A stretch of 64,000 nucleotides of DNA from Paraphaeosphaeria minitans (taxonomy: Eukaryota > Ascomycota > Dothideomycetes > Pleosporales > Didymosphaeriaceae), in contig WJXW01000015.1 in NCBI GenBank assembly GCA_015832175.1, positions 1,364,001 to 1,428,000 of the forward strand. The letters are read 5' to 3'. Below are positions 3,156 to 27,190 of the stretch, piece by piece. The notes beneath the pieces are model-generated. The model was not told the DNA's origin and searched no databases. It saw only the letters and a program-made list of their open reading frames with translations. A program made the translations under genes and the position numbers. Position 1 is the first letter of the stretch; each line of letters begins with the position of its first letter.

Positions 3156-4122
3156 ATGGGAGACTCTCTATTTAAAATCCCTAAGTTAAGTGGTTCTAAG
3201 AACTACGAAATTTGGTCTATTAGAATAGAGGCCTACCTTATTAAAGAGGGTTGTCTAGAGGTTATGTCTAGTAATATTCAAGACCTAACTTTAGAACAAC
3301 AAGCCCTTCTACAGGAAAAAGCTTCTAAAGCTACTAGTATTTTAAAACTTTCCTTAGAAGATGGCCCTCTAGTACAAACTAGGTTTATAAAAAATTCCTA
3401 TATACTTTGGAATAAGTTAAAAGAACTCTATGAGCCAAAGGAATTTAGTAGTGAATTTATACTTAGTAAAGACCTTATTAACACTACTTTAACTAGCCAT
3501 AAAAATAATCTAGAAAGCTACGTTAATAACTTTAAAAGGCTAGTAAATAACCTAGAGGCCAAGTCTATTAACCTTCCTAAGAAATTCCTAGTAGCCCTAC
3601 TTCTAAATAATCTAAATAGTAGGGATTATGAGTATATTATTGCAGTTATTACTCAATATATTAGGATAAATAATAAAAAGGGAGAAGACCTAGATTTAGA
3701 TTCTATAGTAAGCCAACTCCTAGACGAATCTAGGAGACTAAGTTCCATAAGAAAAGGCTCTACTAATAGTAATCTACTTCCTAGAGTAAGTAGTGATAAC
3801 TCTAGAGAAAATAAAGACATATAAATGTCTATGCCTACTAGAGGAAATAGTAAAAAAGACTTATGTTCCTACTGTAGTAAAGAGGGACATATAGAGTCTA
3901 ATTGCTGGGTTAAATTCCCTAATAAAAAGCCTAAAAGCTATAAGGCTAGAAAGGGAAAGCTTAATAAAGAAAGTAGTAATAATACTCTTCTAAAAGAAAA
4001 AGAAGGAGAGACTATTCTTACTACTAAAAAACCCCAAAATAAGTCTAAAGAAATAGACTTTATACTAGATTCTGGCGCCACTATACATACTTGTTATATA
4101 AAAGAGTTATTTACTTACTAAA
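3156..4122 (+). pseudogene. Copia gag and protease start, truncated
   Basis: Residues 1-222 read as a Ty1/Copia Gag (UBN2-type): an N-terminal 'LSGSKNYEIWSIRIEAYL' segment precedes a helical domain. After an in-frame TAA at 3822-3824 the same frame continues with a CCHC knuckle (CSYCSKEGHIESNCW) and the aspartic protease active-site segment (DFILDSGATIHTC). Coding then stops at about 4122, and integrase, reverse transcriptase and RNase H are all missing. Codon use is extremely AT-rich yet the frame is almost clean, so this is not heavily RIP-mutated. The TAA may be a suppressible gag stop or a nonsense mutation. The cut coincides with the start of a different compartment led by a tyrosine recombinase. 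Confidence 0.85.
4111..4122 (+). other. TTAC(N7)A-type motif at the Copia junction
   Basis: The last Copia bases contain TTAC, seven bases, then A (TTACTTACTAAA). This matches the TTAC(N7)A pattern reported for target sites of some Starship tyrosine recombinases. Immediately to the right, composition and content change. The motif is degenerate and common by chance, so the call depends on its position next to the inward-facing recombinase gene. Confidence 0.35.
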
Positions 4123-4132
4123 TATGCGTTCC

Positions 4133-4190
4133 GGTGTTGGGGCGTTCGAATGTGGAGGCTCTTGCCGCCGCTTTTGGAGGCCCCAACACC
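4133..4190. repeat. 11-bp inverted repeat at element edge
   Basis: GGTGTTGGGGC at 4133-4143 is matched by its reverse complement GCCCCAACACC at 4180-4190, giving a hairpin with a 36-nt loop. It lies 10 bp inside the Copia junction and 300 bp before the recombinase start. It could be part of an element terminus, or a structure at its edge. No matching copy was found at a right boundary. Confidence 0.5.
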
Positions 4191-4488
4191 TCGTGCACCC
4201 CCTGCCTCGCCTCGCCGCTTTAAAGGGGCGAAGCGAGGGGATCCATGCCGCTCTCTACCGTGCCACCAGAGATGCCCGCAAGCTTACGCCCTCGAAGCGC
4301 TGAGCATGGAGGTGGAAGAGCATAAGTAGGGTCGACGCCGCACCCGTCATCTTTCCTTACATCCTCCAGCACTTCCCTCGCTCCCTCCCTCGCGCCGCCG
4401 CTGCTTCACTCTTAATTTGTGCATCTTTCCATCCAAAGCATTTCGCACGTCACATCAAGCTGGCTCGCCTTCCCGCCATTTCTCAGCG

Positions 4489-6930
4489 ATGACGATACAG
4501 ATGCCAGTTCGCACGATGCGACGTAAGGTCGTTAACCGCCCAGCTGGCTACTACGAGAAGCTGCGCGATCAGTTAGCAGAGCAAGGCCCTACTGAGATAC
4601 CCTATTCGGATACAACGAATCTAAACCTGAGCGGAACCTGGAAGAAGTGGACTCGGTACGTCTGTCTTTCTTTTAGCTTCTCTCTGCACCGCACTAACAT
4701 CGGCTGACCATTGAAAGTTACTCCAAGTACAGGGCTACTAAGAACCCTATCGATCTTCTTAAGTCTGCGACCGTGGCGGATTATAAAACATTCTTCAATT
4801 GGACCCTCGATCACCATCCCGGCGTGCGGAAGAAGTCGAGCCTTCATCAATACTGGCGGCAGCTGAAAATGCACTACAAATGTCATACGAAGAGACGTTT
4901 GCACCAAGATATCGTGGATGATGTAAACAAGGTGCGCCACGGACTTCCGCAGCTTAAGTGACTAGCTGACTACGTAGCGCAGCACATCCAGGCGCTTACA
5001 GAAGAATATAGACTCGATAAGTCGCCCCCAAAGAGACCAGTACTGGACATCGATGGCCTACTTGTACTACTTTTCTATAACATGGTTCAATGCACCAATG
5101 TGTACAAAGAGGAAGAACAACGGCTGCTATTAGATTTGCTCCTTGTGTGGGGCGCTTATACGGGCGCTCGACCCGTCTCATTGGTCGGTACGAGCGTGAG
5201 CATCCCGAGTAAAGAAGCGGTGGCGAAGGTCAGAGACGACGCAATCCGTTTCTACGACTCCGGCGACAAGGACGAGGGTGAAGACGAGGCCGACGACGAC
5301 ACATGCATGGAAGATTCACGGCCAAGTGATTACGATGTTCCTGAAGCTGAGTGCTTGAAGTCAATCCTCTTCGAGCATGTAACAATCGTAACAGTTAGGG
5401 TGGAAGGCCAAGTGAAGGTGGGCATGTACCTTACTCTCATACATACGAAGGGAGAGGGTCGGAAGCCGCAGCCGTGGGTACATACCGCACGTCTTTCTTC
5501 GCGAGCTGACTTTACCTAGAAAGACGTTCAAGATGTATCAGAACAAAAACCCTTTGCTCTGTCCTATCACTCGCATGATCGCAGTTGGACTCCACCGCAA
5601 CGCGTTCGCCGCCTCCTCGATTCGCAGCGCAGAAGCGATATTACGCGCTCGCATTCCTAGACGAAAGACTTGCAGGATATTCCGGTGGAAGGAAACCATG
5701 CTAAAAGAGCCTGTGTTTCGAGAGCCCACGCGTAACAAGGACCGGGCAATGTCAAAAGGTCTAGCTGAACCTTTGCGACCACAAACGGCAGCCCGCTATC
5801 TGAAGCAGCTTGGACGAGATGTTGGCTTAGAGCAATCCTTGACCCAATCATGCATCAGGCGCGGCACTGGAAATGCAGTTGACAGTACGTGTTCCGCCTC
5901 TGCCTCTACGTCCTCCTGACTACGAGCTAATCCATCGGCAGGCGCGGGCACCGTAGGCGAGCGCGATCAGGTTATGGGGCACAGCCATTCGGGCATATTT
6001 CAGTTCTACATCAATCCAAACGTCAAGTGTGACGTCCGAGCGGCATTCCTAGACGAGCCCTCTGACGATGTCCTCGTGAAGATGCTGGGCAACATGTCCT
6101 TGACGCGCGACCCACTCGCACCAACTAGGCTTGGGCTGGAGGATGCTCGGACGATTGAAGAGCACCCTACTGTCGCAAGGCTACGTCAGCGCCGAGATGC
6201 TTTGACGGACACACTGAAAAGGCTACGGCAGGGATCCGAGCGATGTGTCGACGAAGAGGAAAAGGTCGAGAAGCTGGTTGATCTAAGGAAGGGTGCCGAG
6301 GCAGCCCTGCGTCGGAAGAAAAAGCAATTGCGCGATCGCATGTTGAAGAAAGCTAGAGAGCGTTATTTCATGGAGAACGATACAAGAGAACTTGAGGAAG
6401 AGGACGATAAGCTTCTCGAAGATGAAGCTGAGACCAAAACTAGAATCGTCTACGCGCTCGAGGAGCGAGCCCGCATCGCAGATTTGCTCTGTAGTCCTGT
6501 CGTTGATCTCGATGAACCTGGAGCTCTGGATCGGCGGATCGAACTAATCCGAGTCATGAAAGAGTTGTGCGGTCGTCGTGAGGTACGGCGACGTGGCATA
6601 GCTGCCAATCCGGCACAGGCTGAAAAAAAGGAAGAGGAGGTAGCCTTTGCTCCTCCCTTAGAGTGTGATGCTCGCCAATGTCTATTCTGCGTAGGCGATG
6701 AGTCGATGCCTGTCTCGCAGCGGATGTTCTGTTACAGTCGGCCAGCAAAGATGATGGACCACATTGAAAAAGACCACCTCGATCAATTTGAAGCGGACGC
6801 CGAGATCCCGTGCCCTCATCCGACATGTCGAAAAGATCAAGTAGTGTTGAATAGTGTATCTTGTTTCAAGGCGCACGCTCAAGGCATTCACAAAATCAAG
6901 CTTCGGCTCCCCAAGGCCACAGCTTCCTAG
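4489..6930 (+). pseudogene. DUF3435 tyrosine recombinase (Starship captain-like)
   Basis: Four exons (4489-4655, 4718-5473, 5520-5884, 5942-6930) join in phase to 759 codons; the three introns are 62, 46 and 57 nt. The protein matches the fungal DUF3435 / YR family that excises and integrates Starship transposons. Recognisable parts are the first catalytic arginine block (GAYTGARP), the 'HTKGEGRKPQP' and 'NPLLCPIT' segments, the 'CIRRGTGNAV' arginine block, 'ERDQVMGHS', the tyrosine in 'FQFYINPNV', then 'MSLTRDPLAPT'. A charged helical region and cysteine/histidine-rich finger-like motifs follow (CLFC...H..H, CPHPTC...H...H). The frame is intact except for one TGA at 4959-4961, between 'GLPQLK' and 'LADYVAQH'. 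The start was chosen because it precedes the conserved N-terminus and fits the splice phase. It is the first gene inside the junction and points inward, as captains do. Family confidence is high; activity is doubtful. Confidence 0.9.
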
Positions 6931-7282
6931 AGACTGTCTACTTGAGGGTGATACGCCGCGTACGCCTCGATACCTATACTCCAGCCGGCGGTCCTCACAC
7001 CGAGCTCGCTCAGCGACGAATATTTTAGCGCAGAAGATATCCCACTACCGGACGCAGGGCAGATTGGGCGAAGAATCATGAAAGGCCATATTGGGGGAGC
7101 AGGGAATTTTCAAGACGTCGTGATTTGGCTCTGCGAGGGAGGGCTAGGGTGATGTTGGCGAGCTACATTACTACCATGGCTGATCTATGTGGCCTGGAAT
7201 GTGTGCCACAATAGAGACGTTGCATATGGCACCCTTATTGATACTTACAACGTATGAATGCTTGTTGTACGGGTTGCTCATG

Positions 7283-8147
7283 CGCGACCCAGTTGAACGA
7301 AATCAAACCATGGGTCATTCTGGGGATGTGTTCGAGAAATATTACAGACCAACGCATATTGCCCGCGACTTCCAAGCCATCCTCTTTAGAAGCCCCTCAG
7401 AAGATCTCTTGATTCAGTCTATTACGAGGATAGGCTTGTCACGAGATCAACGCACCCCTACGGATCTCGACAATGCTCATCGAGAAGAGGTATGGAACGA
7501 CCCCTTACAGGACCTACGCGCCCTGTACATAAAGCAGCGTCGCAACACTGGTCACTATCCAGCTATAAAAGGCAAAGGTACCGAACCTCAAAGATATACG
7601 AGGCAGCGAAGCGCAAGATTGTTAGCACAAATCAAAGACTGCACAAGTAACGGCTGGACTTGGCCATCCGGGAGTTCCATGACGCGATCGAAACGATCGA
7701 TATCGCCAACCAATTAAGTGGCCAAGCTGCAGAGGAGGTTCTAACACAACCAGTGACTAAATTCGAACTCAGAGAGCGCGCATCTGTTGTCAGTATGCTT
7801 TTTAAGCCCGTTCAAAACGATGGATCGCGCGTAAATTTTTTGCGTCTTCTAATCAGATTGTGCCGCAGACAAGAGACGCGGCGGCCGAAGGCATCCAAGC
7901 GAAAGAACATTGAATGGGTGGTGTACACCAAGGGGACTTGTAAAAGGCGGAACAAGAAGTTCACCGTAGCAGTGGAGGGTCTACGTCAACTAACGGATTC
8001 GCTACGAGACTCTCCAACAGTGCTTCCTCACTCGATATGCCTTATTTGCGACAAGGAGTTCACGGACGAAAGGAGGCTTAAACCTTAGCGAAAGGACAGC
8101 CTTAAAAGGCATATCAAGATACACTTCCAACGAACCTAAGTATCAGG
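7283..8147 (+). pseudogene. second DUF3435 remnant, C-terminal half
   Basis: A second, divergent copy starts with 'ERNQTMGHSGDVFEKYY', the catalytic-tyrosine end of the recombinase, and continues with 'SPSEDLLIQSI' and 'GLSRDQRTPTDL'. A frameshift near 7650 moves the reading to 'LDLAIREFHDAI', and an in-frame TAG at 8086-8088 interrupts a C2H2-like tail (CLICDKEF then SLKRHIKIH). The N-terminal half and first catalytic arginine are missing. It belongs to a different DUF3435 lineage from the neighbour at 4489-6930. This looks like a fossil of an older recombinase rather than a duplicate. Confidence 0.8.
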
Positions 8148-8149
8148 CT

Positions 8150-8617
8150 GAATTTAAATGCCGTCACCCTTCCTGTTCCGAACGGCTAAATAGGATTCTA
8201 CATTTTATAAGGCATACACTAGATGTACACAGTGTATATATTATTAGTTCTATAGCGAGCCACCATGTCCATATCTGTATTCTCTGCTACAGAAAAAGCT
8301 TCCACGAGGTCGCTACGCTGCGGCTCGACGCCGTTTTCGAGCAGCACGGACAGCATCCTCTTGTTATTTTCTGCAATAGCTTTAGAGAGCAGGCTTTACT
8401 GCGGCTCAGCTTCTTGTTGCCCGGGCTGGGTCTGCGGGGTTGTCGACATTGTAAGGATAATCGCGTTCGAGGCACTATATTTCCTAAGAGAGGAGGCCTC
8501 GTACCCTTGACTTGATGTGGGCGCCTAAGGTACTTTGGTCGCGTTTAGAATATTGGCTTAGATTTCATTGAGTTCTTCGGATTTTACATTCGCCATATAT
8601 ACCTAAGCCCAGGGGCC
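8150..8617. other. no gene seen
   Basis: Short open frames occur on both strands here but none has recognisable content or coherent splice structure. The stretch separates the recombinase remnant from the 3' end of the ankyrin gene. Confidence 0.5.
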
Positions 8618-9814
8618 TTATCGACCCTGTGCGCCTGCTGCAAGCAACACAGCTACTATCGTTTTACAAGTTCCGTACGATTCTGCTATGGATAAGGCCG
8701 TGTTCCCAACATTGTCCTGGAGGTCGAGCTTGATGTCTCTCGCTCGTAACAGAACGTCCACGCCGTCCATGAACTCAAATCTCACCGCGCGCATCAACGG
8801 CGTCTCTGAATCATACTTCTGGTCGTTAACGTCAGCACCCGCCGCCATAAGAGCTTCCATCGCCTTCAGATTATTTTTACTTGCAACTTGGAGCGCTGAC
8901 ATTCCTGAACTGTTGTAGGCGTTCGCAGGCACCCCGGCAGCGAGATAAAGTTTCACAAGGGCAGCAGTATCATTACCCAAGTCAAGATCCAAATTAATGC
9001 CCCGGTAGCCCGCAGCTGTGCACATCAGATCCTCCCCATACAAATCGAGATCCGCGTCCCTGATGAGCCTAGCTACAGCTTCGGGGTGATAATTTGATGT
9101 TGCACACAACAATGCGCATTCGATACTGCCGTGCTTCATCCTCAGTAAAGAGTCGATCACGTCGACATGCCCATTTGATGCTGCCCACTGAAATGATACT
9201 GATATGTCTTTAGTAACTAGCACTTCTTTTGCCAGGAGGATTTCCACCATCAAAACGTCTCCTCTTTCGGCTGCAAAAGAAAGTGCAGTGCGGACTCCCT
9301 GCCCAGTCGAGTTCACATTTGCTCCACAACGCAAAGCGAACGAAAAAGTTGCAGATTGCCCGACTTTTACAGCCCAGAGCAGCGCGGAGGATGCTATGGA
9401 AGAGGCTGATATTTCATGCGAAAACACATCGCGAAGATACGTGTTGCGCAGACAGAGTAAAGCCAGGGATTCGTGTGATAAGTAGCTGCCTATCATGAGG
9501 ATGATCTCGACGGGAAGCTTGAAGATATGCACTTCTGATCCGAGGGTTTTGATGGCCGGGCCATTGCGGTATGCCCTCATCTCAGGGGTCATATGGAGAT
9601 CGATGAGCCATAGATGATGATATGTAGGCGCCCGCGGGTGAAGATACCTTGGGTCCGTTAGGTTCGGGGCGGAGTACATATTAGCGCCGAAGATGAAGTA
9701 CTGTATGAATTCGGAAGCGTGGAAGCGGAGTAGACATGTGGCACAGCGCCAACACCGTCGGCATATCACGTGATGGAGATAATTTCCCGCCCAGCAATCG
9801 TGATCCCTGTCCAT
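8618..9814 (-). CDS. F-box-like ankyrin-repeat protein
   Basis: A single-exon 398-residue protein. A short cysteine-containing N-terminus leads to an F-box-like segment at about residues 100-135 (FKLPVEIILMIGSYLSHE, then LRNTYLRDVF). Ankyrin repeats follow from about 145 to the end, seen in 'RTALSFAAERGDVLMVEILL', 'GMSALQVASKNN', 'DSETPLMRAVRFEFMDGVDV' and 'VGNTALSIAESYG'. F-box proteins recruit substrates to SCF ubiquitin ligases, and ankyrin repeats bind partners; substrate and location cannot be told. The ORF is intact. An internal methionine about 50 residues in is an alternative start. Its role in the accessory block is unknown. Confidence 0.75.
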   Translation of the reverse strand: MDRDHDCWAGNYLHHVICRRCWRCATCLLRFHASEFIQYFIFGANMYSAPNLTDPRYLHPRAPTYHHLWLIDLHMTPEMRAYRNGPAIKTLGSEVHIFKLPVEIILMIGSYLSHESLALLCLRNTYLRDVFSHEISASSIASSALLWAVKVGQSATFSFALRCGANVNSTGQGVRTALSFAAERGDVLMVEILLAKEVLVTKDISVSFQWAASNGHVDVIDSLLRMKHGSIECALLCATSNYHPEAVARLIRDADLDLYGEDLMCTAAGYRGINLDLDLGNDTAALVKLYLAAGVPANAYNSSGMSALQVASKNNLKAMEALMAAGADVNDQKYDSETPLMRAVRFEFMDGVDVLLRARDIKLDLQDNVGNTALSIAESYGTCKTIVAVLLAAGAQGR

Positions 9815-10097
9815 CCACGCCCCATACTAGATGAATCCGAAGCGGCTAGGCGGAGACAACACCTTGTGGTTAGCTCTCGCATGACTGGCTATGTTCGACG
9901 GCAAATCATGTGATATGCCGGTAGGAAACCGTGCAATGCGATCGTGGTCGTTGGGGTACATGCATGCTTCCTCACTCGAAAAAGTCTTCTTCAAATAACC
10001 TCATTTCTTCTTTGAGACCACGTTTTGGCGCCAGTCGTTCGGCCACGAAGTCTTCACGGTCCCCATTCGATCGATCATATAGGACTAGGTGGCGCAC

Positions 10098-10715
10098 ATG
10101 GAAGGCTCCCGGAAGAAGGGGTGTTTGAGAAAGAACAGAGCTGCTTCGATCGGAAGAATTGCGACTTGGGATAGACGAGTGCAAGAAGCCGAGGTTCATA
10201 AGCTTGCGACCCTCCATGCTCTCCCAGATGAGCTCCTGCTCCACATCTTCAAACACACGGACCATTGCACGGACTATACTTCGCACCGCCTGGATCCTAG
10301 ATCTAAGCAGGATTATCGCACCTTGAAAGCGCTCTGCTTGACGTCGAGAAAATTCAGAAGGGTTGCTACTGAACTCTTATACAGCACCCCAACGACAGAC
10401 AAAGGTGTGAAGCTGCTGGAAGTCGTCGCAACGCGCGACCATCTATCTCCATACGTGCGGACGATCAACGGCGTTGGTTTCGACTCTTTAAATACCAAAG
10501 ACTGGAAAGACATTGCTACCGCAGCCCGCTGGGAATTCCTAACCCTATTCGACCAACGCGTGTTAATGACAACTGTGGGCCGCTTACAAGCTGCACTATT
10601 AACACATAAGCGCCTTCGTGCTTTACAACTCGACTTCGTCCGAGGGCAGAATCCCTCTGCACTGTTCGATCTCACTGGATTCCGAGAACTTCGCTGGGTG
10701 AACACAGGTGCTTGA
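10098..10715 (+). CDS. F-box protein, possibly 3' truncated
   Basis: The protein of about 205 residues has an F-box near residue 40 ('LHALPDELLLHIFKHTDH', 'TLKALCLTSRKFRRVATELLY'), typical of fungal F-box proteins with a degenerate LRR-like tail ('RLQAALLTHKRLRALQL', 'LTGFRELRWVNTG'). Fungal relatives usually run to 350-500 residues, so the frame probably ends early at 10715 through truncation or a missed intron. Start chosen: the ATG at 10098, since the frame also opens with a non-ATG codon just upstream. Confidence 0.6.
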   Translation: MEGSRKKGCLRKNRAASIGRIATWDRRVQEAEVHKLATLHALPDELLLHIFKHTDHCTDYTSHRLDPRSKQDYRTLKALCLTSRKFRRVATELLYSTPTTDKGVKLLEVVATRDHLSPYVRTINGVGFDSLNTKDWKDIATAARWEFLTLFDQRVLMTTVGRLQAALLTHKRLRALQLDFVRGQNPSALFDLTGFRELRWVNTGA

Positions 10716-11010
10716 CAAAAAGAAAGTTCGTTTCTCCTTGATGAGGGCTTTTTAAGTTTGGACTCAGGAAACGCTGTCTTTGACTATAAAATATAATAAC
10801 GACCTTTCGCACGCAAAAGCATGCATTGGTTCTAGAAGCCTGCTCCTGGATCGTTCAAGGATAATGTGACGATTGCAAGGCTGCCCCAATAGACCTTGGC
10901 AAGCAAGTCCTTTTAGGGCATAGTTCATGCAAGGGTCGATTTATAAGTATGGTAGCCCTGCCCCTACTACCACTTCACGGCGCTCTAGCTAATCCAGCGA
11001 CTTTACCAAG
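10716..11010. promoter_or_regulatory. upstream region of the small secreted protein gene
   Basis: This gap has no coding content. A TATAAG-type box lies at about 10941 (ATTTATAAGTATGG), some 65 bp before the ATG at 11011, and is the likely core promoter of that gene. Confidence 0.35.
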
Positions 11011-11385
11011 ATGCTACTTATATCTCTCCTATTTGCTGCCTTAGGCCAGGCTTGCGCTGTTGGCCCCGATCTGGCTTCGCGTGCCCAATGTCACAAAGGT
11101 GAAGCTGGGTCAGTCTATGTGCAAGTCTCACGTCCAGCTGGCGATACTGCAACCCATCGAGTCCTCTTTAACACGACATACTCTGCAAGGGAAACAGGTA
11201 GTTGCCTTAGCAGAGAGCAGCTTATCGAAGATACAGCTAGTAGCGGCCCAAAGGCTTTTGCTTCGGTCGAGACTATTAATCCATTTGAGGGGGGATACTG
11301 TGAAATATACAAAGACGAGAATTGCAGCGAGAGCCAGGTGTTAGATCTTAAAAACCCTGGATTCTACCTAGCGTATCCCAAGTAG
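11011..11385 (+). CDS. small secreted cysteine-containing protein
   Basis: A single-exon 124-residue protein. The first 16 or so residues form a clear signal peptide (MLLISLLFAALGQACA), and the mature part has four cysteines (in AQCHKG, GSCLSR, GYCEIY and DENCSES) that could form two disulfides. No known domain is recognised. Size, secretion signal, paired cysteines and location in a repeat-rich accessory region are the usual profile of a candidate effector or apoplastic protein, but that is inference only. No intron is needed. Confidence 0.65.
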   Translation: MLLISLLFAALGQACAVGPDLASRAQCHKGEAGSVYVQVSRPAGDTATHRVLFNTTYSARETGSCLSREQLIEDTASSGPKAFASVETINPFEGGYCEIYKDENCSESQVLDLKNPGFYLAYPK

Positions 11386-12830: not shown

Positions 12831-13975
12831 CAAACGGTACAGTATACACCTTGCGCATACCCGACATACAACCATCTCCTGTGGCCTCAGTCGAACTGTT
12901 TCCTACTGCGCCCCCTCTACAAAAACCGAGGCCTGGTAACTTGACGTTCAATGCAACCGGGCCGCCATTGACTTCATCGGGTATGGCTCGCAAGCAAACA
13001 TCTGCAACTTGGCATCAGATCATGCTGTGGGCTTCCTACACTTATATCTATGGTATCATCTAGAAGACGCTGGTGTTGCCACAAAGGACGCATCGAGGTC
13101 CCGCGCAGCTATCTTCGTGGAGTACATGGGGCGCGCTGATTCTGCAAGTTGCTACGGCATCGGCATTTTGTAGCCGGAAAGGGGAGCAGTCCTCTACACG
13201 CCCGGAAAGGCTCGTACATAGCTTGATAGCTTCTTGTAGTACCTTAATGACCATTCAGAAAGTCGCCGTGGTACCCTAGTCCCGTGTGGTCTCCGTTGCT
13301 TAATACAAATCGCCCAGCTATGCCTTCGAATATGGCTGTGTTCCAAATCGTCTCATATTATAGAGCGGGAAGACGATTGTTGAAGCCTAGCGGGCAGGTT
13401 CCCTCCATCAACAGGTTAGGGTAGGCTAAATGGGAGTCATGATCAGTCGAGTCCAAACTCACCCCATTCCAGCAAGACGGAAACATGAGTTCTAGCCGAA
13501 GACCATCCCGACATCGGGAAGTAATAAAACTTTTGTCTGGCAGAGCGTGTCGCAGGAGTGCGCCCTCGTTGGGACCTTCGTAGTTTAGACAGGTAAAACC
13601 TAATGCTCTTTGGGACAGAACATCTTGAGTCTTGTCTTCCTCTGTCCATAAAGACCGAGGAGGATCGTGGGCTGGTAGTCGTGTCTTGCGTCGGGTTGAG
13701 TTTCCAGCTACCATGCGAAAGTCTTCAGGGAATGCAGTGATGTTATCGCCAAAAAGAAAGTAGTATCTAATGCGATGTTAGCGCTTGAAGTCATCGAGAG
13801 GATATACATACATAAGCATTCCATCTATCTGAGGCACGGCGACTATAGTGTCGTTGGGGTAAACAAACATAAGTGGAGGTGTCCAATAGACCGAGAGATC
13901 CTGTGTAACAGCGCATGAAGTGCAATTAGAATGACGGACGCTACTGTACGTTGTATTAAAGCTGATACCTTTTAT
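12830..13975 (-). pseudogene. DUF1996 secreted protein pseudogene
   Basis: Read on the minus strand from about 13975, successive segments line up with the DUF1996 family: 'SNCTSCAVTQDLSVYW', 'VAVPQIDGMLIYY', 'GDNITAFPEDFRMVAGN', 'ALGFTCLNYEG', 'LRLELMFPSCWNG', 'AYPNLLMEGTCPLGF', 'YETIWNTAIFEGIAGRF', 'LSNGDHTGLGYHGDFLNG' and 'VLQEAIKLCTSLSGRVEDC'. A 45-nt intron at 13767-13811 (GTATGT...CTAAC...TTAG) is still perfect. Damage: a stop replaces the aromatic residue before 'YETIW' (just below 13360), and a frameshift follows 'DFLNG' near 13255. The signal-peptide exon was not found. DUF1996 proteins are secreted and of unknown function, often with WSC domains. Confidence 0.75.
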
Positions 13976-14432
13976 TATTTAGCTCATGGAAAGTTTAGTA
14001 ACATGAAGCCTACCCTGAGCCCCGTGAAGGGTATGTGAATGTTGAGAAGGTTGATATGGCGAGACGATAGGGTCTATCCTGTAGATGCCTAAACTGATGT
14101 GATGTTAAATTGTGGGGTTTCCACTACAACAATCGTACCTAGAGTAACATGGCAACCGCCAGAATCCTTTGCTAAGAGGAAGAAGAGTTACTATTGTTAG
14201 TTATATCTGCCTCATTGCTCGTAGGCCATGCTTTGTCTAATCTAGCGAGATTTTATAAGAAACCGTAAGGCGTGCAGAAAAGTAACCTTCGCTTAAAAGG
14301 AAAGAGAGGGAAAAAAAGGAGGGGAAAGGAGGAAAAAAAAGGGCTACACACTTATACCAGTTATGAGCTACCTATTTAAGACAATGAAAATTCTCCTATA
14401 AGGTGACATTGAAACTTGAATAACACTCGAAT
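13976..14432. promoter_or_regulatory. intergenic region with homopurine tract
   Basis: No coding content is seen. A 49-nt uninterrupted purine run (A/G only on the plus strand) lies at about 14295-14343, 90 bp before the next gene. Such tracts are common in fungal promoters, and a TATTTAAG box follows at about 14370. It may serve the gene starting at 14433. Confidence 0.35.
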
Positions 14433-16996: not shown

Positions 16997-17666
16997 TATG
17001 TTTACAACTAAGCTAGCTATTCTGTTTACTTGCGCCGCTTCTTATAGTAATAACTATCTGGCTCTAGCTAAAACATGTGAAGCCTCCCAATTATCGTCTG
17101 CCTCTGTTATTACAGGCACTTCAAGAGCTCTCGTATCTGAGGCTGATTTCTCATTTCCTGAGGCCGTTTTGGGAAAGACTTCTTTGAGAAAGCATTCCGG
17201 GATTGGCGGGGGAGGAAGAGAGGTTCTCGGAGTCTCAGCCGATGGTAGGCTGCTCAGGCTCTCGAGCTCGAAGCTGTGCGGTGTCTTTATGTCAGGAACG
17301 GGATACGTGTTTTTCTTGTTATAGATGAGTATAGGGTGTTATCGCAATGCGTTAGATCGCTCACAAGTTCTGTATTTGACGGAGGCCAAGTCGGATCGCT
17401 TGGGCTTGAGTTATACACATGGATTTGGCCTTTCCTTTGGATACAAACCTATACTTTCACGTTATATCGGGTCCTAAGCTCATCTCCGCGGCGCATATAA
17501 TTAATCGGCCGCTTGCGAAAAGATTCCAGGTGCACTCGGCGCGTTTTCCTTGAATCCATAACAATAGGGAGGATGTACGTGAAAAAAACGCAGGGTTTAA
17601 GTACTATAACTGGACGCACGGGCCAATATAAAAGCCGGCATCAACCCCCATGGAGCGCGCAAAAGA
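16997..17666. promoter_or_regulatory. upstream region of the ferric reductase with TATA box
   Basis: No coding content is recognised. A TATAAAA box at 17627-17633, directly preceded by a CCAAT element (GGCCAATATAAAA), stands 33 nt before the ATG at 17667. Close placement of TATA and ATG implies a very short 5' leader. Confidence 0.55.
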
Positions 17667-19462
17667 ATGGTCGGCCAATCTAGCCTGACACTGTGGTACT
17701 CTGTTGCCGCGTGCGCCCTTGTTATCTTTCTTGCGCTGCGGTGGCTCACTTACTACGTCTCCCGTTGCGTGACTACTTGGTCTACTTATGTTATCCTGAA
17801 GTACCTGCAATATACGGAAATAAAGCTCCTCAGAAGGCTACGGCTGCGCACTACGATTGGAGATGTCATCTTGTATATCGTGCTCCTTTCGGCCAATGTC
17901 ATTTGCATCAGCTGGAAAGTGCAATCCCTTACCGACTTCAACACGCGGACCGCATCGATGCTATCTACCAATCTGGTACTCCTGCTACCGAGCGCAGACA
18001 CCATTGCAGACAGTTTTAGAATCTCACTTCGCACATATCTTAAAATCCACACTGCTATAGCTTCGTTAGTGATCGTACAAAGTATTCTGCACCCGTGCCT
18101 GGCGGCATACAATAGTGGCCTGTTGTGGAACGTAAGGTTTATTACCGGCATTACAGTAAGCGTACACGTTCCGAGAGTCTTTCCTACTGACAGCGCAGGC
18201 ATCAGTAAGCATTCTGCTAGTTGCACTAACGTCAATCAAGCGATTCCGAACGCGTGCATACGAGCTGTTTCGCCTGATCCACATAGCCGCCTCGGCGGGC
18301 GTGGCCATCGTTCTTTGGTTCCATATACCCCAAAAAGAACTGAAAAATCGTGTTATCGTTATCACAGCAATCGCCGTATGGGGCCTGAGTTTATTCCACA
18401 GGTATAGTCTGTTGCTGTATCGAAACGTTGCGTGGGGCAGAAAGACCACCACCGTGATAGAAACATCAGATAAAGCGTTGAAATTGCAGATAAACCCGGC
18501 TAGGCCCTGGAAAGTGCACCCAGGCCAATATGTGTACTTGACGGTCGCCAAAGCTGGGATGCTCTCCCGTTTCCAGAGACACCCCTTTATGGTAGCGTCA
18601 CCAGTACTGTCAAACAGCATCGAACTACACGTATGGCCACAAAAGGGATTCACGAAGAGGCTGCTTCGCTTGTCAGAACAATACCAGTATTGTGAGGCAT
18701 GGATTGAAGGGCCGTATGGCCGGTCAATCGACTTGCGTGAGTTTGGCACTGTGGTCATCATCGCCAGCGAGATGGGTATCATTGGCCATCTCGCTTATCT
18801 GAGAGATCTGGTCCAGAAGCAAGATGACTTTAATACCAAGATCCGTGACGTGGTCTTCATTTGGTCTATTGAAGAGTGGTCCGACGCTCACCCCGCTCGA
18901 AAGTCCATGGACGAGCTATTAAAGAAAGATAAGGAGCGAGAAACAGCGAGATCTAGTTTAACAAAGGATCAGCGCTACTTACATTCCAAAGAGGAAGATA
19001 GACAGGAGGACCCTGGAGTACGACCAGTCTTGTCCGGCAACAATGTAAGTTTTGCACTTGAAGTCCTGCTACCAAGTTAATCTGACCTCAGCTACTTGAC
19101 ATCTACGTATATGTTCGAAAGTTCCCCTAAGAGATTGCAAATACAACGACGAGAAACGGTAAAAGAATGGTTCTAATCAAAGGACGTCCTGATCATTCCG
19201 CGATAATTGAAAAGATACTCAAAAACCGCACGGGAAACATAGCAATAACCGGTAAGTCAATCACGAAGTCGTGGTATCCACCCCTAACTGTTCAGTGTGT
19301 GCTGAAGAGGAGATCACGGATGTGGTGCGGGCCAAAGTATCAGAAGTTATGCATAAGAACGTAAGGCTCGTAGTATCAGACTTTGAACCCTTTGCTGCGG
19401 TCCCTGCAGACGGCAGACGAAGAGAACGCAGCATGTCTGTGAGATGCCGAGGTATAGAATAG
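17667..19462 (+). pseudogene. ferric reductase (FRE family), one in-frame stop
   Basis: Four exons (17667-18155, 18199-19044, 19092-19251, 19296-19462; introns of 43, 47 and 44 nt) join in phase to 554 codons. It is a membrane ferric/NADPH-oxidase-like reductase that would pass electrons from cytosolic NADPH through FAD and two hemes to Fe3+ or another acceptor. About six membrane segments are visible. Two heme-pair signatures with HX13H spacing are present ('IHTAIASLVIVQSILH' and 'IHIAASAGVAIVLWFH'). Then come the FAD site (HPGQYVYLTV, RHPFMVAS) and the NADPH site (GPYGRSIDL, VVIIASEMGI), and a 'VCAEEEITD' end. One TAA at 19128-19130 breaks exon 3 between 'VRKFP' and 'EIANTT', cutting off the C-terminal NADPH-binding end. 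FREs are standard Starship passengers. Confidence 0.88.
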
Positions 19463-19471
19463 AACTAAGTC

Positions 19472-19945: not shown

Positions 19946-19999
19946 CTTGTATGTGGGCGTATAAGTAGTGCCTCTTTATGCCGCTTCTTATACCTGCAG
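19946..19999. promoter_or_regulatory. 54-bp bidirectional promoter with two TATA boxes
   Basis: Between the two start codons, TATAAG occurs once on each strand: plus strand at 19960-19965 (34 nt before the ATG at 20000) and minus strand at 19987-19992 (41 nt before the ATG at 19945). The boxes cross over each other, so each core promoter overlaps the other gene's leader. The symmetry suggests co-expression or mutual interference. Confidence 0.55.
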
Positions 20000-21076
20000 A
20001 TGGATTCTGACACAGACATAATATTCGCTCTTGAGCCCAGTGGAAAAGACGGCCTTAGACAGAGCTTGCGCCGTCATGCGTCTGTCCAGTCACGTTCTTC
20101 CATCCGATTAGACGGTCTTGGGCAAAGCCGAGCAGAGATTACCGCTAAGCGCACCTTTCCCCCTCTGCTCAAGCCTAAGGTAGCGCGGCTCTGTGACCCA
20201 GATCAAGAGTATGAATGGTGGTGGAATATTGATTGTGGGAACGGTCGTAGCTATTGTTATGCGTCGTCGCGCAAGAACAACGAAGCATTCATGATACTGC
20301 GGGTTGCGAAAAAAGCTATCTTCGAACAAGAACGCGCTGAGCATTATGCACTGCAGCTTGTGGAGGCTCTCGAATGGGATAACTCGATATTTCTGGTGTA
20401 TCCACGCCCTGGGGTCTCTCTATCACGTATACGTTGGAAAAAATGCTTAGCCCTCCTGGATTTCAAAACCATATGCAAAGAAGTAATTATGCAAGTCGAG
20501 GGCGAAAGCTACCTACTAATGGAGCAGCAGGCGCTCCGTGGTGTACACTAGGTGAACAGGTCCGGCTGCTATTTCCGGAAAGTTTCACCTGAAGACGTGT
20601 ATCTCTCTACCATTGATGGACGTATGAAAATAGGTAAGCGGCTGTGAGCTATCGAGAGATGACATAACAAAGCACAGTAGCCATTCACCGAAACATTCAG
20701 GTTGGACCGCGGACGCGACCTCCTCAAAGCAGAGTTGATGGAAATGCTATCAGGACTTTGTGAAAGCTTGGAAGCGCAGACAGGAAAGCATCTGGACGGT
20801 GAAATTGAAGCCTTTTTGGATGCAGGACGTGATGTTGATGCGGATCTGCAGTCACTCATCAAAGTTCGTTACCATGGATTACACATGATTCGAAACACTG
20901 AGCAGGTACAGCACCCATTTCTAAAAGATTGTCCTCCCAGTAAACGAATGGCTTTGCTAGCCGAAAGCTCAAACATGGTTATGTTTGGTCGTCTTAAGGT
21001 CCATGAAGGTCTCGTCAAGGACACTAAGCAGGAGGCTTGTCCCCATTCTGCCGAAGACGACGAGATCTTCGAGTAA
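20000..21076 (+). pseudogene. protein kinase-like gene, decayed
   Basis: The first frame (20000-20551, 183 residues) ends in segments like a fungal kinase N-lobe and hinge ('EAFMILRVAKKAIFEQE', 'IFLVYPRPGVSLSRIRW', 'FKTICKEVIMQVE'). After a stop at 20549-20551 another frame gives 'CYFRKVSPEDVYLSTIDG', like the strand before the metal-binding loop. A GTAAGC...TTCAG intron then leads to a helical segment (20702-21076, 'LLKAELMEMLSGLCESL', 'LIKVRYHGLHMI'). No HRD or DFG motif was found, so it would be a pseudokinase at best. The frame break near 20550 and the lost motifs argue for a pseudogene. It overlaps the 3' end of the gene at 21024-21397. Confidence 0.45.
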
Positions 21077-21397
21077 CGTTAACCCCCCTTTCCTCTTCAA
21101 GTACTTCTAAACGCTCCTTGACCTTATCGTACATATCTTTGTAATGGAACTTCTCTGCCTCGAGTTCTTGATTCTGATGAAAAAGTCCATTGCACTGAGA
21201 GCTGATTCGAACAATTTCTTTCTGGAGGGCGTCGATATGGTTCATATACGCTGGTATAAGCTGTTGACCTTGTTGATACCATACACCGAGACCGTTGTAG
21301 GCATAACCGGCATGGTTCGCAAAGCCCTGGTCGATTAGTACGGCGCGAGTTGACCATCTACATGTAGACGTACGTCTTGCTGTTGCTGGTTGTTCAT
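21024..21397 (-). CDS. two-exon small coiled-coil protein
   Basis: Exon 1 is 21374-21397 (eight codons, MNNQQQQD). A 47-nt intron with GTACGT donor, TACTAATC branch and CCAG acceptor lies at 21327-21373, and exon 2 is 21024-21326. The joined protein is 108 residues: a Gln/Gly/Tyr-rich N-terminus (GYAYNGLGVWYQQGQQ), a strong coiled coil ('MNHIDALQKEIVRISSQCN', 'NQELEAEKFHYKDMYDKVKE') and a basic tail (TRRSRRLRQ). No family is recognised. The clean splice signals and phase support a real gene that single-ORF calling misses. Its last 53 bp overlap the 3' end of the kinase-like gene on the other strand. Confidence 0.6.
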
Positions 21398-21745
21398 TGA
21401 TGAAAGGCTAGCTGTTTTTGGGTGACGGACATCTGGGGCAGAACACTGCTACTTAATATGCTTCGACCGGTGGAACAGAAAGCGGCGACGTATCGGAATG
21501 GGCGGATTCCCAAAATCACATGAGTCAGGCGTGACGTAGTGACCATGCCTATATGCATGCCATAATCAGATTGTTGATAACCAGCTAGCTAAATGTATCC
21601 TCTGGTTCAGAAACACCTGATCTATGTGATCTCCTGAGACCTAATCCATATACGAATAATCGAGATCACCAGAAAATTTGATATCCCCAGGTACAGTAAC
21701 ACCACTAAGTGAGCGACAGGCCAATTCCAAGTCAGTCAGAGCACG
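21398..21745. other. intergenic, no gene seen
   Basis: No coding content. A TATTAAGTAG box lies about 60 bp upstream of the gene ending at 21397 (minus strand) and resembles the TATAAGTAG box at 19960. Confidence 0.35.
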
Positions 21746-22063
21746 TCACATACCCTGAGGCAAGCTCACGTATGGACTGGGTTTCTTGCGATCGCTAGGG
21801 TCGAGTACGCAATGATCTTCATGCTCCGGTGATGGCGTATGAGGCGCGGGTTTAGGTTCACTTAACCCGACGGTGTCGGAATCACACATGACTGCCCACT
21901 TTTTCTGCAGACCCAAGGCGGTCCTACGTCTACGCCTGTCCACGGTTTCCCTGTTGTATATGGTGCGGATAATCTGCCAATTTGCGGTGGGATTGGCGCT
22001 CTTTGCTGCTTTGAGCCGTCTCTCCTCCTGTGGCGTATACTTGGGGGTTCTTCGGAGAGACAT
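21746..22063 (-). CDS. small Myb/SANT-like protein
   Basis: A 105-residue intact ORF. Residues 8-55 look like a SANT/Myb-type tri-helix: 'YTPQEERRLKAAKSAN', then 'NWQIIRTIYN', then a basic recognition-helix segment 'RRRRRTALGLQKKW'. The rest is Pro/Ser/Asp-rich and disordered. A DNA-binding or regulatory role is inferred. MYB/SANT-like genes have been noted as recurrent companions in some Starship elements, which fits the FRE/PLP neighbourhood, but similarity was judged by eye only. Confidence 0.5.
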   Translation of the reverse strand: MSLRRTPKYTPQEERRLKAAKSANPTANWQIIRTIYNRETVDRRRRRTALGLQKKWAVMCDSDTVGLSEPKPAPHTPSPEHEDHCVLDPSDRKKPSPYVSLPQGM

Positions 22064-22342
22064 TTCGAGGTGGCAGTCGGTCTAGATGGGATATTCACCT
22101 GCATTAGCGGTCCCAGGCAGTTCAAATAATCTTCAGCAGCAGACTAGTGGCTGTGCCGGGAACTGTCTTGCGAATCGGAAGCCGTGGAAATTTTGTCGGC
22201 TGCGTTTCCCGGCCCCTGTTATCTGAGACATGGCCTACCATTCCCTGCTCGGGTCGACGGCATTGGTATCTGGGTGCGCAAGAATAGTACTTAAGTTCCG
22301 AGAGCTACCGTTCCATGACGGCGACAACTGAGCATTCCACCA

Positions 22343-22753
22343 ATGCAACCCTTCCAGCCCATGCCTTCGATACCAGAACTGGACTATGACCCCGCATGGC
22401 TAGACCCAGGAACGTCGGATCACTTCCTCTCGCTAAGTCCATACGAACCTGCGGCATCCCATCACACCTCGGATGCTGATTGCGAGGCACGGGAAGTTGC
22501 CAACATAGCTAGACAGGTGCGGCAGCTCCAAAGTGACGTGCTAGAGATAAGAGAGAAGATGCAGGCTAGCCTAAATGATATGATGGAGAATTTCAATAAA
22601 TGGTCTCTTGACACAGACAAAACGCTAGTTCATTTGGTTAAAGATATCGCAAATTTGGACCGGAACTATCTGAAGTTGATCCCATGGTGTTACCAGGTGC
22701 ATGAGAAAGTGTCAGAATGTATGGCACATGTGGACGCAGGGGTGAAAAAATAG
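22343..22753 (+). CDS. small coiled-coil protein, unknown
   Basis: A 136-residue intact ORF. The Pro/Asp-rich N-terminus ('SIPELDYDPAWLDPGTSDHF') precedes a heptad-rich helical region of about 80 residues ('VANIARQVRQLQSDVLEIRE', 'LVHLVKDIANLDRNYLKLI'). No domain is recognised. It lies divergent from the Myb/SANT-like gene (280 bp between starts), so the two may share regulation. Confidence 0.5.
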   Translation: MQPFQPMPSIPELDYDPAWLDPGTSDHFLSLSPYEPAASHHTSDADCEAREVANIARQVRQLQSDVLEIREKMQASLNDMMENFNKWSLDTDKTLVHLVKDIANLDRNYLKLIPWCYQVHEKVSECMAHVDAGVKK

Positions 22754-22928
22754 TCTGGCGGCAAGGCAAGGCGCATTTGATCTGTGGCGTGGTGAATCTC
22801 GGCGGCGCGGTCAACCGGCGCTTGCGCTGAGGCTCGGTCGAGGCCGCAAGCTTCAATTGTTTTATGGGATTAGTCCATCGTATTGTCTTTTTTAGTTTCC
22901 ACGTTAACAGAAAGTTTGATGGTGCATA

Positions 22929-23514
22929 ATGCTTCAATTTTCCCTGTGCTGTTGTCTCACGTTGTTCGGATGGACTGCGGCTAGAATGTGTGGGTACCGT
23001 ATGATTCCCCGGCTGGCGTATCACGCTAACGATTTGATACCTAGCTGCAGGTCCTTGGCAGAATGCAACCATAACGCGACCAGCTGTGTGCAGTACACAC
23101 TATGTACCGATCGGTACCGCCGTCAATACACGTTCAGTCTCTTGCAACTCATCTGGCGTGTTATCAGAAGCACCAGTCCGGGAGCGCGACGACGTTGTTC
23201 GTTTTGCCCTTCCTGGAGACTCAAGCGCGATGAATTTACCTCGGATGCTGGCGAACAACGCAAGGCTATCAATTGAACGATGTTCAACCGTGGATATCCA
23301 TAGCGATAGCGGAGACATCGTCTCGCTTAGACTTGAAGAGATATATAGCGAAGAGGATATAGGATATAGGCCGGATATGCCACCTGCCTTGTTGTCCGAG
23401 TTTTCTTACGGCGTAGGGAATCGGGTGGCGGGTGTACCTGTTCTTCCAGATGTTGAAGTTGGCGAAAACCTCCTTGACGACTTTGGGAACTGGTGTAGTA
23501 TGAAGCTTTCATAA
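22929..23514 (+). CDS. possible two-exon hypothetical gene
   Basis: A hydrophobic start (MLQFSLCCCLTLFGWTAAR, from 22929) could be a signal or membrane segment. An intron ending in CGCTAAC...CTGCAG near 23050 would join it to a long open frame that runs to 23514. That frame includes 'RERDDVVRFALPGDSSAMNL', 'SLRLEEIYSEEDIGY' and 'PVLPDVEVGENLLDDFGNW', and is low in repeats and protein-like. The exact donor is uncertain. Its stop overlaps the stop of the membrane protein on the opposite strand by six bases. Confidence 0.35.
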
Positions 23515-24166
23515 ATCCACATACACGTAATTAGGACTCGTAATTACGGTTACTATAACCAAACAAGCCGAACAAGCAACTGCTACAAGCGATCTAGGGA
23601 AGAACGATCCAAACTCTACAGACAATGAACTGATCCCACCGAAATACTTGTACATGATCATGATCAAAGCCACTGGGTAGACAAAACATGCGAGCGCAAG
23701 GATAGAGAACAAGACCTGCAGACCACGGATAGAAGGTGCTCTGAGCCCCAGGGAGATCCAATACATCGTCAAAGATGACACACCTGCAGTCAGACCGAAG
23801 GTTAGACTGATGTAAATCAAGGCCGGGTGTAGTAACGTGTTTATGTAGCCAGGCACGGACTGCCCTTTGTCCAGTAGAAGGAGCTTAATTGGAAGTGGAC
23901 CACATTGCACATGCGCGACGTAATGTATGCAATAATCCAAAGTTCCTATGGTCAACATAAACCACGAACTCGAAGAGTGCGAACGCTGTACGGTCAGTAC
24001 ATATTTATTGTCCGAGATGTAAACCAACCCGCAATATTATGAACTCTGAATCGTGACGCGCATCGCTACGGTAAGCAACGAAGACACTGAATGAACTGGC
24101 GGTATAGAAGCAAGTTGCAATCACGACGCAGGCAGCCCGGCTCTTTCTCCTAATGGGGGGAAACAT
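23509..24166 (-). CDS. multi-pass membrane protein, structure uncertain
   Basis: The main frame (24027 to 23509) has at least three strong membrane segments ('ALIYISLTFGLTAGVSSL', 'VLFSILALACFVYPVALIM', 'SLVAVACSACLVIVTVI') after an N-terminal loop. A likely first part on the same strand, starting at 24166 (MFPPIRRKSRAACVVIAT, another hydrophobic segment), is one base out of frame. A short intron or a frameshift near 24035 therefore separates them. No transporter family is recognised. It sits directly downstream of the patatin-like gene on the same strand, with 47 bp between. Confidence 0.45.
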
Positions 24167-24212
24167 TGTTTAGCACTCGTAATAAATGGGGAATGTAAGT
24201 TTAAATATGCCG

Positions 24213-27190
24213 CTACTTCGATCTAATCCGTTTTCGGCTCTGCATCGTGTTCGATTTACGCCGCTTTTTGCTCAAAAGTGGGCAACAACCTCTATGCGGT
24301 GCACCGTGATGAGCACGACCAAAGTCGGCTTCAAGTGACTGCTTATCTACCATGGACCGCACATTCTGCGGGAATCCACTGATTCTGCATTTCCACGAGT
24401 TGTTGAATTGTAGATAAATATTTATAGATCGCTCCATGTCGCGTATGTTGAAGGTAACGTCTTTGCAAAATTTCCCACATACTCTACAGAGGTCTTGGCT
24501 TGTGAGCTCACCAAGAACTTTGCCTCTATCAAGGCTAAAAAAGGCTGCAGGGTACTCGTCGAGAATTCGGTGCACGACGGCACAACCATCCGGACTACGA
24601 CACCGTATCGTACCGGAGCACTTTAATCTCGTGCGCCCAGACTCGGATTGCGGCATATCTAAGTCGAGAAAGAACGAAGCCGAGAATAGGGCTCGGAGTA
24701 TAGGCTGAAAGTCGAACTGCTCTAGTAAAAGAGAGGAGCTGTGTTTCGTCTTTGACATTTCGTTTGAGTCATCCAGTTCTGGTGCGTGGTCTAGGAGCAT
24801 GTTTACACGAAAATACTTCTGACGTTCTTCTTCTGTTTTGCGGTTGATATGTTCGAGCCAGCCGCTTTGTGCATCTATCATCGCATCAAAGATGCGAAAG
24901 AGTCTGAGGAGGAACCTGTCACGAAGTCGAAGCCGATTTGATATCACGGGCGGAGGCGGAGGGACCTGGGTGTAACCTGTTCCAAAGGATACGACGAAGT
25001 CCGCTGCAGCGTTCCAGATGGCCCTTGCCTCCCATTCGGCAGGATCAACGGGATTGTTATGTTTGCCTGCGCCACCATCTTGAGTGAAACCCAGGCCACG
25101 AATGAATTTCGCTGGGAAATACGACGGCGCGGCTGATGTTGCTCGGGCACTATGGTAGATTAGTGGAGACCACACGCTAATGGTGGCGATACGTACGCCT
25201 CGCAGACAAGGACCTCGTCTTCAGCCCGAGCAGGGCGATGGTGGTAATACCCTGCAATGGTCAGTTTCTTTCTTGGGGAATATACAATTCCTGATGTAGT
25301 ACCTTTCCGATCTCCGCTACCGTTGTAGCTTGAAAGCAAGTACAGCTGGGACGTGGACACGCTCATCGTAGTGACTGCAAACTTTGTGCTAGACCTCCCC
25401 GAGTCATGACCGAGGCCACCGAAGAATGGTACGTCCTCTCCATAAGCTTTATTGATACAACTCTCTATTCGCGCGGACCCGTAACGACTGTCTGTAACAA
25501 GGGATGATACGGCTCCATAAACCCAAGACCATAAGCCGTTTCGGGGTCTAAAGAATACTCTGGCTGCGAGCGCTTCAAAGAGTGAGAGACATTTTGACAT
25601 GGTCCGGCGAAGGAACATCATAAGAACGATAAGTCCCCCTAAGAAGTGGTTAGTAGAGTAAGCTCAAGCTTCTGTGAACATACCGGAGCTTGTGCCTATG
25701 GCGAGATCAAAGTCGTCATAGATTGGATAAGGAAGCTTTCTCACGGCCTCCAACGCTCGTATGGCTAAAATAGTGAAGATCCCTCGAATACCTCCCCCAT
25801 CAAGAACAAGTAATCGGGCGCCCGCCGTGGGTGGCTTCAGGTCAACAGCCAGCTTGTTGTTGACGCCGCACAAAGGGCACGTTGTTATAATGTAAGCATA
25901 CTCTTTTTTCTTAACCTGTGTTCCAATCATACATACGCAGTCATCACATAGAGTGTGGCCGCAGTGAAAAGAATGCTCTGGCTTCCGACGTAGGCATCTG
26001 ACACATGACCGCGCCGTCCGGAATCCGGCCCAATCAATCTTGGATGATTTTGTAATGTCCTGATGACTCTTTGATGCGCTGCCTGGCAGAGAAGAATCGT
26101 AAAATCTGCAGAATTTGGCCCTGATGAGCTTGCAGGAGTCCTCAGGAGAGAGGTTTACCTGTGCCAGTGCTTCAAAACAATGGCAAGCGTAAAGCGAATC
26201 AAAAACGATTCCGTCAGGGAAGCCTTGACCTGTTAGCCGCGAATCATAGTCTAAACATGACTCACGGTGCGTTTCGGGCGGAGAGCTGTCCATGACAAGC
26301 GCCGAGGCAACATAGCGAAAGGCAAATTCTTTGCTAGCGTCGTTCTGCATACACAACTCCAAAAACGTTCGGATGTGCGCGATGAGGCTATGGACAATGG
26401 GATTGTGATTTCGAGTTGCGCTGACGAGGTCGAAGTTGTCCAAGCTTTGAGCGAAGTGTTTGAGCCCCGCCTTGAAAAATCCGATCAGGTGCTGCGCTGA
26501 GAATAGTGATTGAGACGACGCTCTCTGCTTGTGTACTGGAGCTACAGCCTGTACAAGTGCTCTCTCGAGAAGCCTAGAGCGTTGTGAGTATGTCTTAACC
26601 GTTTTGATGACGTTGAAAGAGGGTAACGTTAATTTTTCGCGTTGCATTTGAATGGGCGACCTGCGACTGGCTAGAAGGAGTGTTGGCTTCCAAAAAGGGT
26701 TTAGATCGGCGAGAACACGCGACCATCGGGTCACTATTTCAATCGCTTCACCGGGCGATGCGAAATCATCCAAAAAGAGGCAGACCACGTCGCTGAAGAG
26801 CAAAACCAGGCGAATCAGAATGGTGTCTACGATATCGTGCATCGTGCAATCCGCAGAGTTGGCGGCCCATTCTACGCGATGGCTATGAGGGTGGCGATAA
26901 TACTTCCGGAACGGAAAGGTGCTGTATAATTGCTCAAGGTCTACTGAGATCATAAAGGCTGGCTGACGTGCGGACAAGCTAACGAATTGAACATCTGCCA
27001 GTGGGTGTGCATGCCTTCCGGCGGGCTTTGCGGAGGTTCCCTTCCCGACAGTGACAACAAAAGCAGGACATTCCGTGCTAGGGTTAGTGATTTGATCTGC
27101 GGCAAGCTTCAGTCCGTCTCCCAGCATGAGGTAGGGTCTGTCATTGGCAAGAAAAGCGTGAATCAGTCCTGAACTGTCCGAGGTACTCAT
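24213..27190 (-). CDS. patatin-like phospholipase with RING-like finger
   Basis: Exons 27190-25684, 25638-25197 and 25149-24213 (introns of 45 and 47 nt) join to an intact 961-residue protein. Residues 1-400 are of unknown fold. A RING-like zinc finger follows ('SCVRCLRRKPEHSFHCGH', 'LCDDC', 'CPLCG'), then the patatin hydrolase core: oxyanion loop DGGGIRG, nucleophile elbow GTSSG (completed across intron 1) and 'GLIVLMM', 'AARATSAAPSYF' (across intron 2), and the catalytic DGG in 'FTQDGGAGKHNNP'. Both residues of the Ser-Asp dyad are therefore present. Patatins hydrolyse acyl esters of lipids. The N-terminal extension plus finger plus patatin layout resembles the PLP class carried by Starships. 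A TATA box lies 34 nt upstream. This is the best preserved large gene in the block. Confidence 0.9.

Follow-up and report, generated by a model that had tools for sequence, protein, structure and literature searches.

Features of the left edge

We analyzed a 64,000-base stretch of DNA, here called the window, from Paraphaeosphaeria minitans (Pleosporales, Didymosphaeriaceae), which has been described as a mycoparasite and antagonist of Sclerotinia. The window spans C15:1364001-1428000 and was compared with the 47.45 Mb assembly of 30 contigs. Near its left end lies a gene for a DUF3435 tyrosine recombinase, the captain of the Starship transposons of Pezizomycotina, which reads inward from a junction within a Copia retrotransposon. 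An earlier note on this DNA had read the arrangement as a probable Starship. The features at the edge are as follows, with window positions given unless a contig is named.

2355..4115 (+): Copia retrotransposon, 5' portion with gag and the beginning of the protease, affected by repeat-induced point mutation (RIP) and broken at 4115; start taken from the match to a copy on C6
2431..2876: solo long terminal repeat (LTR) of another element, nested in the Copia; 446 bases long, with TG...CA ends and TCTAT flanks
4111..4115 (+): TTACT, left copy of a putative 5-base direct repeat (target site); aligned with three empty sites and with the right edge on C19
4116..4247 (+): predicted Starship left terminus; 4112-4247 is 74% like the left ends before captains C20:53180 and C15:763050
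4489..6930 (+): captain, DUF3435 tyrosine recombinase of 741 aa; exons 4489-4655, 4718-4931, 4983-5473, 5520-5884 and 5942-6930
7184..8085 (+): degraded piece of another DUF3435 captain of a different type ("type B"); PF11917 E 7e-14 on 7184-7714, far end placed by eye

The Copia gag was read at 3099-3821 (PF14223, E 7e-18), and the protease begins in the next frame as judged by eye. Comparison with uninterrupted Copia copies placed the junction at 4115/4116, inside the protease frame and within a few bases of where a sharp junction had been described. Three other Copia copies match the window up to 4115 and then continue ACTTTAGAACC, while the window continues TACTAAATATGCG. The TA/AT index is 1.9 for the Copia sequence at 2878-4115, indicating RIP marks, and 0.84 inside the edge, indicating none. 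This junction is not explained by chance.

The junction was further explored by counting the Copia halves that reach the site. There are 25 left and 25 right halves genome-wide, and in 24 pairs the halves adjoin directly or almost directly (one pair lacks 46 query bases, another a single base). These 24 pairs represent empty sites, in the sense of paralogous Copia sites within one genome rather than the same locus in another strain. The two halves left over are one orphan left half, in the window, and one orphan right half at C19:268370 (minus strand). The count was tabulated by hand from genome-wide matches, with 37 of 37 and 36 of 36 first-look candidates scored, and copies that match only up to a point before the site, or only from a point past it, are left out. 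Six diverged Copia copies on C15 were uncounted; their match ends at query base 1206, six before the site, and no right half was found for them.

The sequence just inside the edge is not unique to the window, as 4112-4247 has counterparts of 74% identity ahead of both sister captains, C20:53180 and C15:763050. Since the outer flanks of these two insertions are identical (198/198 bases), they represent one insertion in a segmental duplicate, not two independent insertions. A left terminus conserved at another captain insertion, seen at two duplicate loci, supports the Starship reading. The two captain loci themselves (C15:763050-765785 and C20:53180-55994) are nearly identical and belong to a segmental duplication common to C15 and C20.

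The captain gene and a second captain remnant

The first gene inside the edge is, as the earlier note had it, an inward-facing DUF3435 recombinase. Its ATG lies 373 bases inside the edge, and the reading frame runs without an inner stop over five exons separated by four introns with GT...AG ends. The DUF3435 profile matched two of the exons (E 1e-23 and 2e-25). The captain call is not explained by chance. The product and P. minitans protein PMIN04_011770 (P0001) agree in 731 of 732 residues; the window captain has Gln at position 378 (P0001 numbering), where all nine proteins compared have Arg. Among the nine proteins found, the nearest outside P. minitans include one from Paraphaeosphaeria sporulosa, with 72% identity over three quarters of the captain. 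A Pyrenophora tritici-repentis DUF3435 protein (P0002) shows 63% identity over the full captain, and two relatives from Zopfia rhizophila show 60% and 58%.

Recombinase-like residues were recognized by eye as CIRRG (R396), MGH (H417) and Y426, all invariant in the nine relatives. The position of Y424 of Sanctuary, assigned by motif spacing and not by structural alignment, would be a Cys in the window captain. The Phage_integrase profile matched two of nine members of the captain family, the best with an E-value of 0.0017, which is under the cut-off. A structure prediction for the captain had a mean predicted local distance difference test (pLDDT) score of 42.8, too low for use, and comparison of the captain with solved structures gave no match.

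The type B remnant behind the captain was absent from the earlier account. Type B captain sequence also occurs at C15:1341324, at C15:392602 and on C8, and the genome holds 20 exon-level DUF3435 matches, located on C15, C8 and C20.

Cargo genes

Behind the two captain sequences we identified the following candidate cargo.

8621..9826 (-): ankyrin-repeat protein with a weak F-box-like match, from a profile search
10089..10712 (+): F-box protein or fragment, from a profile search
10993..11382 (+): small open reading frame (ORF) with a leader-like hydrophobic N-terminus by eye, a candidate secreted protein; no Pfam match
13361..13777 (-): single exon of a DUF1996 protein gene (E 2e-29)
17610..19470 (+): ferric reductase (FRE), encoded across several frames; three Pfam domains, end placed by eye
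21749..22081 (-): weak Myb-like match, E 0.0026, under the cut-off
24213..27190 (-): patatin-like phospholipase (PLP) that looks complete, with two introns (model by eye)

Both PLP and FRE had been named before, and both are present. In FRE, FAD_binding_8 (E 1e-12) and NAD_binding_6 (5e-6) are over their cut-offs and Ferric_reduct (6e-5) is under its own; toward the 3' side there is an in-frame stop, which may reflect either an intron or decay. The PLP translation shows GGGIRG, GTSSG and DGG by eye, and Pfam Patatin scored 27.5 and 20.2 bits on two exons, both below the cut-off of 27.7. With the first 520 residues as query, 19 PLP relatives were found at 26-74% identity, including proteins of Alternaria, Pyrenophora and Fusarium. 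The Myb/SANT-like gene of the earlier note survives as the weak match listed above, and its candidate secreted effector as a leader-like ORF that matches nothing in Pfam. Other ORFs of the region appear by eye to be coiled-coil. NLR and DUF3723 found no match among the 50 single-frame window ORFs scanned.

PLP, FRE, NLR and DUF3723 were looked for as Starship accessory families, and PLP and FRE are so named in PMC12506042. Elsewhere in the genome, the region at 8.6-28.5 kb has at least four partial matches of 141-676 bases. The long DNA searches with this region and with the right side had 4 of 5 and 38 of 47 candidates scored; the window itself was unlisted, so that absence from these searches is weak evidence.

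We considered that the locus may never have been a mobile unit, and that a captain relic came to lie next to ordinary accessory genes, PLP and FRE being among them by coincidence. The second captain remnant adjoining the first, the possible decay of FRE and the lack of a right edge on the contig fit such a history. The clean edge against 24 uninterrupted Copia copies, the conserved left terminus and a captain open over five exons do not, and we regard this explanation as highly improbable. Instead, the captain, the Copia edge, the 24 empty sites and the PLP/FRE cargo indicate that the stretch is very likely the captain-bearing left part of a Starship, an element that was presumably mobile. The earlier note's reading of these genes as one bounded element at 4,111-27,190 was not supported.

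The right side of the element

Beyond the cargo the following features were found.

29459..37075: accessory-contig repeat with MULE-like (Mutator-like element) transposase remains by eye; 95% to C20:30991-38550, in two pieces
29807..30373 (-): SWIM domain within the accessory repeat
37076..42401 (+): duplicated C8 DNA, the element's upper limit; compared over its first 300 bases and the L5 gene

Among the matches listed, the accessory repeat is also shared in pieces with C15, C19 and C29, and at least five further copies stop at 37,073. It holds an inverted repeat at 33806-34364 with 69-base arms that are 96% complementary and 421 bases apart.

From 37,076 onward, 300 of 300 bases are identical to C8:1388950-1389249 (reverse). 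A ribosomal L5 gene (PF00281, PF00673), which we take to be that of mitochondrial ribosomal L5, lies at 42,056-42,401, and its partner on C8, equally far from the fusion point, scores the same with both profiles. The identity to C8 and the L5 partner mean that the element extends no further than 37,075 on the contig. In the assembly, the element is interrupted before 37,076. This switch to C8 DNA, like the type B remnant, had not been noticed earlier. Past the fusion point C8 is unrelated to the window over the 301 bases read, and these 301 bases have no match in C15:1294001-1558000.

A right end was not located on C15. The position 27,190, where the element had been said to end, carries no edge mark. 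We also considered 37,073-37,075 since several copies of the repeat stop there, and rejected it, as its flank is C8 DNA with no resumed Copia and the 301 bases of C8 just mentioned are unmatched in the C15 range given. A search of C15:1368116-1558000 with about the first kilobase of the continuation as query (E up to 1e-5) did not find the Copia sequence that the earlier note expected past the right edge; the sole orphan copy of this sequence genome-wide starts at C19:268370. The right-end motif does not occur within 5 mismatches to the right of the element on C15, up to 1558000. A whole-genome search for it gave five matches including the query itself, all away from the element's right side on C15. 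As the right boundary was not found on the same molecule, we classify the element as a left part only. To its left, by about 42 kb, a right-end-like 25-mer within 5 mismatches at C15:1325527 (+) may close another Starship.

The fusion at 37,076 could stem from the assembly, with the Starship intact in the fungus, C15 mis-joined at the repeat end at 37,075 to a copy of C8, and C19 mis-joined likewise. The fusion point does coincide with the repeat end at 37,073-37,075 at which other copies end, and the perfect identity to C8 is what a false duplication would give. However, C8 is unrelated to the window on the other side of the fusion, so there is no shared sequence for a repeat-induced mis-join. 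We consider such an artefact possible though doubtful, and the break is probably a real rearrangement.

An orphan right edge on C19

The orphan right Copia half at C19:268370 offers a candidate for the missing edge. It reads AAATAGA-TTACT-ACTTTAAAACC, and TTACT is thus found at both edges, on different contigs. Just before the right Copia part stand AAATAGATTACT and sequence resembling right ends found elsewhere on C15 and C19. Inward of this edge, 1,030 bases resemble four other right-end candidates and a stretch of C8, as well as sequence lying 14 kb behind the sister captain (C15:763050); the right ends at C15:872067 and C19:491312 lack the last ~40 bases. The RIP indices over the 1,030 bases are 0.75 and 1.47, indicating no RIP, and TA/AT is 1.3 over the last 150 bases. 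RIP was not used as an age test at this edge.

A second link to the window lies further along the contig. C19:336740-337318 matches window 2300-2878 at 99%, and this copy takes in the nested-LTR junction. After that junction C19 continues into an apparent retrotransposon interior, and the window has the solo LTR flanked by TCTAT. Because the copy includes the nested-LTR junction, C19 appears to share a piece of the very Copia copy struck by the window Starship, which tips the balance towards a shared origin of the two orphan halves. We infer that the two halves come from one insertion, and we lean towards C19:268370 as the right half of the element.

Several observations weigh against this reconstruction. 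The terminal inverted repeat between the window's left end and the C19 right end, a pair that is itself unproven, was equaled in 113 of 1000 shuffles, and the better pairs among the 12 left-right pairs tested involve other elements. Terminal inverted repeats were reported for 18 of 20 Starships in PMC12153272 and are thus frequent, not universal. The Copia match on C19 ends after 949 bases and no Copia was found in C19:264000-266200 (266201-267421 was unread), so that pairing of the halves by LTR and target repeat failed. Among the matches listed for window 8.6-48.4 kb, none falls in C19:268-336 kb. A mis-assembled contig would give the same picture on C15. Finally, TTACT is not rare in Copia, with seven sites on the same strand and 14 on the other over 2,234 bases, and two insertions at one site are possible.

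The last point leads to an explanation in which two Starships, one in the window and one, perhaps of another type, on C19, inserted independently at the same Copia site and each lacks its other half. The C19 right end is 81% like (135 bases) the right ends that pair with the type B left end at C15:1343844, namely C15:253083 (0 of 1000 shuffles) and C15:1281788 (7 of 1000), and the left end of the window has no comparable link to C19. On the other hand, one C15 right end also pairs with the C20 left end of the window captain's sister (2 of 1000 shuffles), so right ends are not cleanly sorted by captain type. Two insertions would further require that one of at least seven same-strand TTACT sites was hit twice, and that two complementary losses occurred in a set of 25 copies. 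We judge this history unlikely, if worth keeping in view.

The type B left end also delimits a candidate complete Starship of ~62 kb, with a type B captain, at about C15:1281788-1343844 (minus) to the left of the window. Its left terminal repeat, GTGGTTGTGGAAACGCATCC, lies near C15:1343844, with a matching right end near C15:1281788.

Proposed history and relation to known Starships

We propose that a Starship inserted at TTACT inside a Copia on the captain-rich contig C15. By analogy with known Starships, the tyrosine recombinase at its left end would have cut and rejoined the element at short direct repeats, with PLP and FRE among the cargo carried along. The element would have broken at some point after it inserted. 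What stayed on C15 would be the captain with the left edge and no more than 33 kb of interior sequence, and this remnant would have been fused at 37,076 to a duplicated C8 segment; the right edge and part of the interrupted Copia would be those at C19:268370. As a whole, this account of a Starship in Copia, a later break, a C15/C8 fusion and a right edge likely on C19 is probable. If the right edge is on C19, the window copy is immobile as one piece. A variant in which Starship activity itself caused a real break, through a C15-C19-C8 exchange that copied the C8 segment with L5 beside the still-open captain, is improbable in our estimate; if true, it would mean that Starships help build accessory chromosomes from core DNA.

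The window element resembles the Starships of Pezizomycotina in having its captain first and inward at the 5' edge, a putative short direct repeat, empty sites, and PLP and FRE. Unlike complete Starships, it showed no right edge on its contig and is cut and fused to duplicated C8 DNA. In characterized Starships the captain is necessary and sufficient for transposition, according to PMC12153272. The same paper gives A(N3)TTACTA(N2)A(N15)CT as the predicted target of the Janus Starships of Aspergillus fumigatus, of the Phoenix family. The empty Copia site contains the core TTACTA; in both copies tested it does not fit the outer A(N3) and (N2)A, and the likeness is to the target core alone.

Fragmented Starships occur at breakpoints in Verticillium dahliae, where PMC12289983 reports that 60% of inter-chromosomal breakpoints between two strains fall in Starship regions. 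It also cites Macrophomina, in which Starship insertions are found close to 30% of the translocations, inversions and putative fusions. The V. dahliae rearrangements come from strain comparison, whereas the break in the window was inferred from one assembly. If the C15/C19/C8 fusion is real, it would be an example, from one genome, of a Starship sitting at a rearrangement breakpoint, the association reported for Verticillium and Macrophomina.

Starships, their PLP and FRE cargo and their link to rearrangements were already known; what is added here is a Starship in a mycoparasite, with a base-exact left edge, the target core TTACTA and a list of empty sites. We found no literature naming both Paraphaeosphaeria and Starship, in a search that had subscription papers and preprints outside its scope.

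Other features of the region

Beside the L5 gene lie genes for a ubiquitin hydrolase (38005-40098) and a SET-domain protein (42772-43794), core-like genes on a captain-rich contig. Two AT-rich blocks, C15:1342-1366 kb and C15:1428-1442 kb, flank the element, and parts of them match each other reversed at 84-86%. Further into the window, 51204-51574 is a tandem repeat of 143 bases in 2.6 copies at 98%. At 56160-63795, a DDE transposase gene (PF03184, with a Tc5-type helix-turn-helix) is split by an element resembling a long interspersed nuclear element, which carries endonuclease, reverse transcriptase and RNase H.

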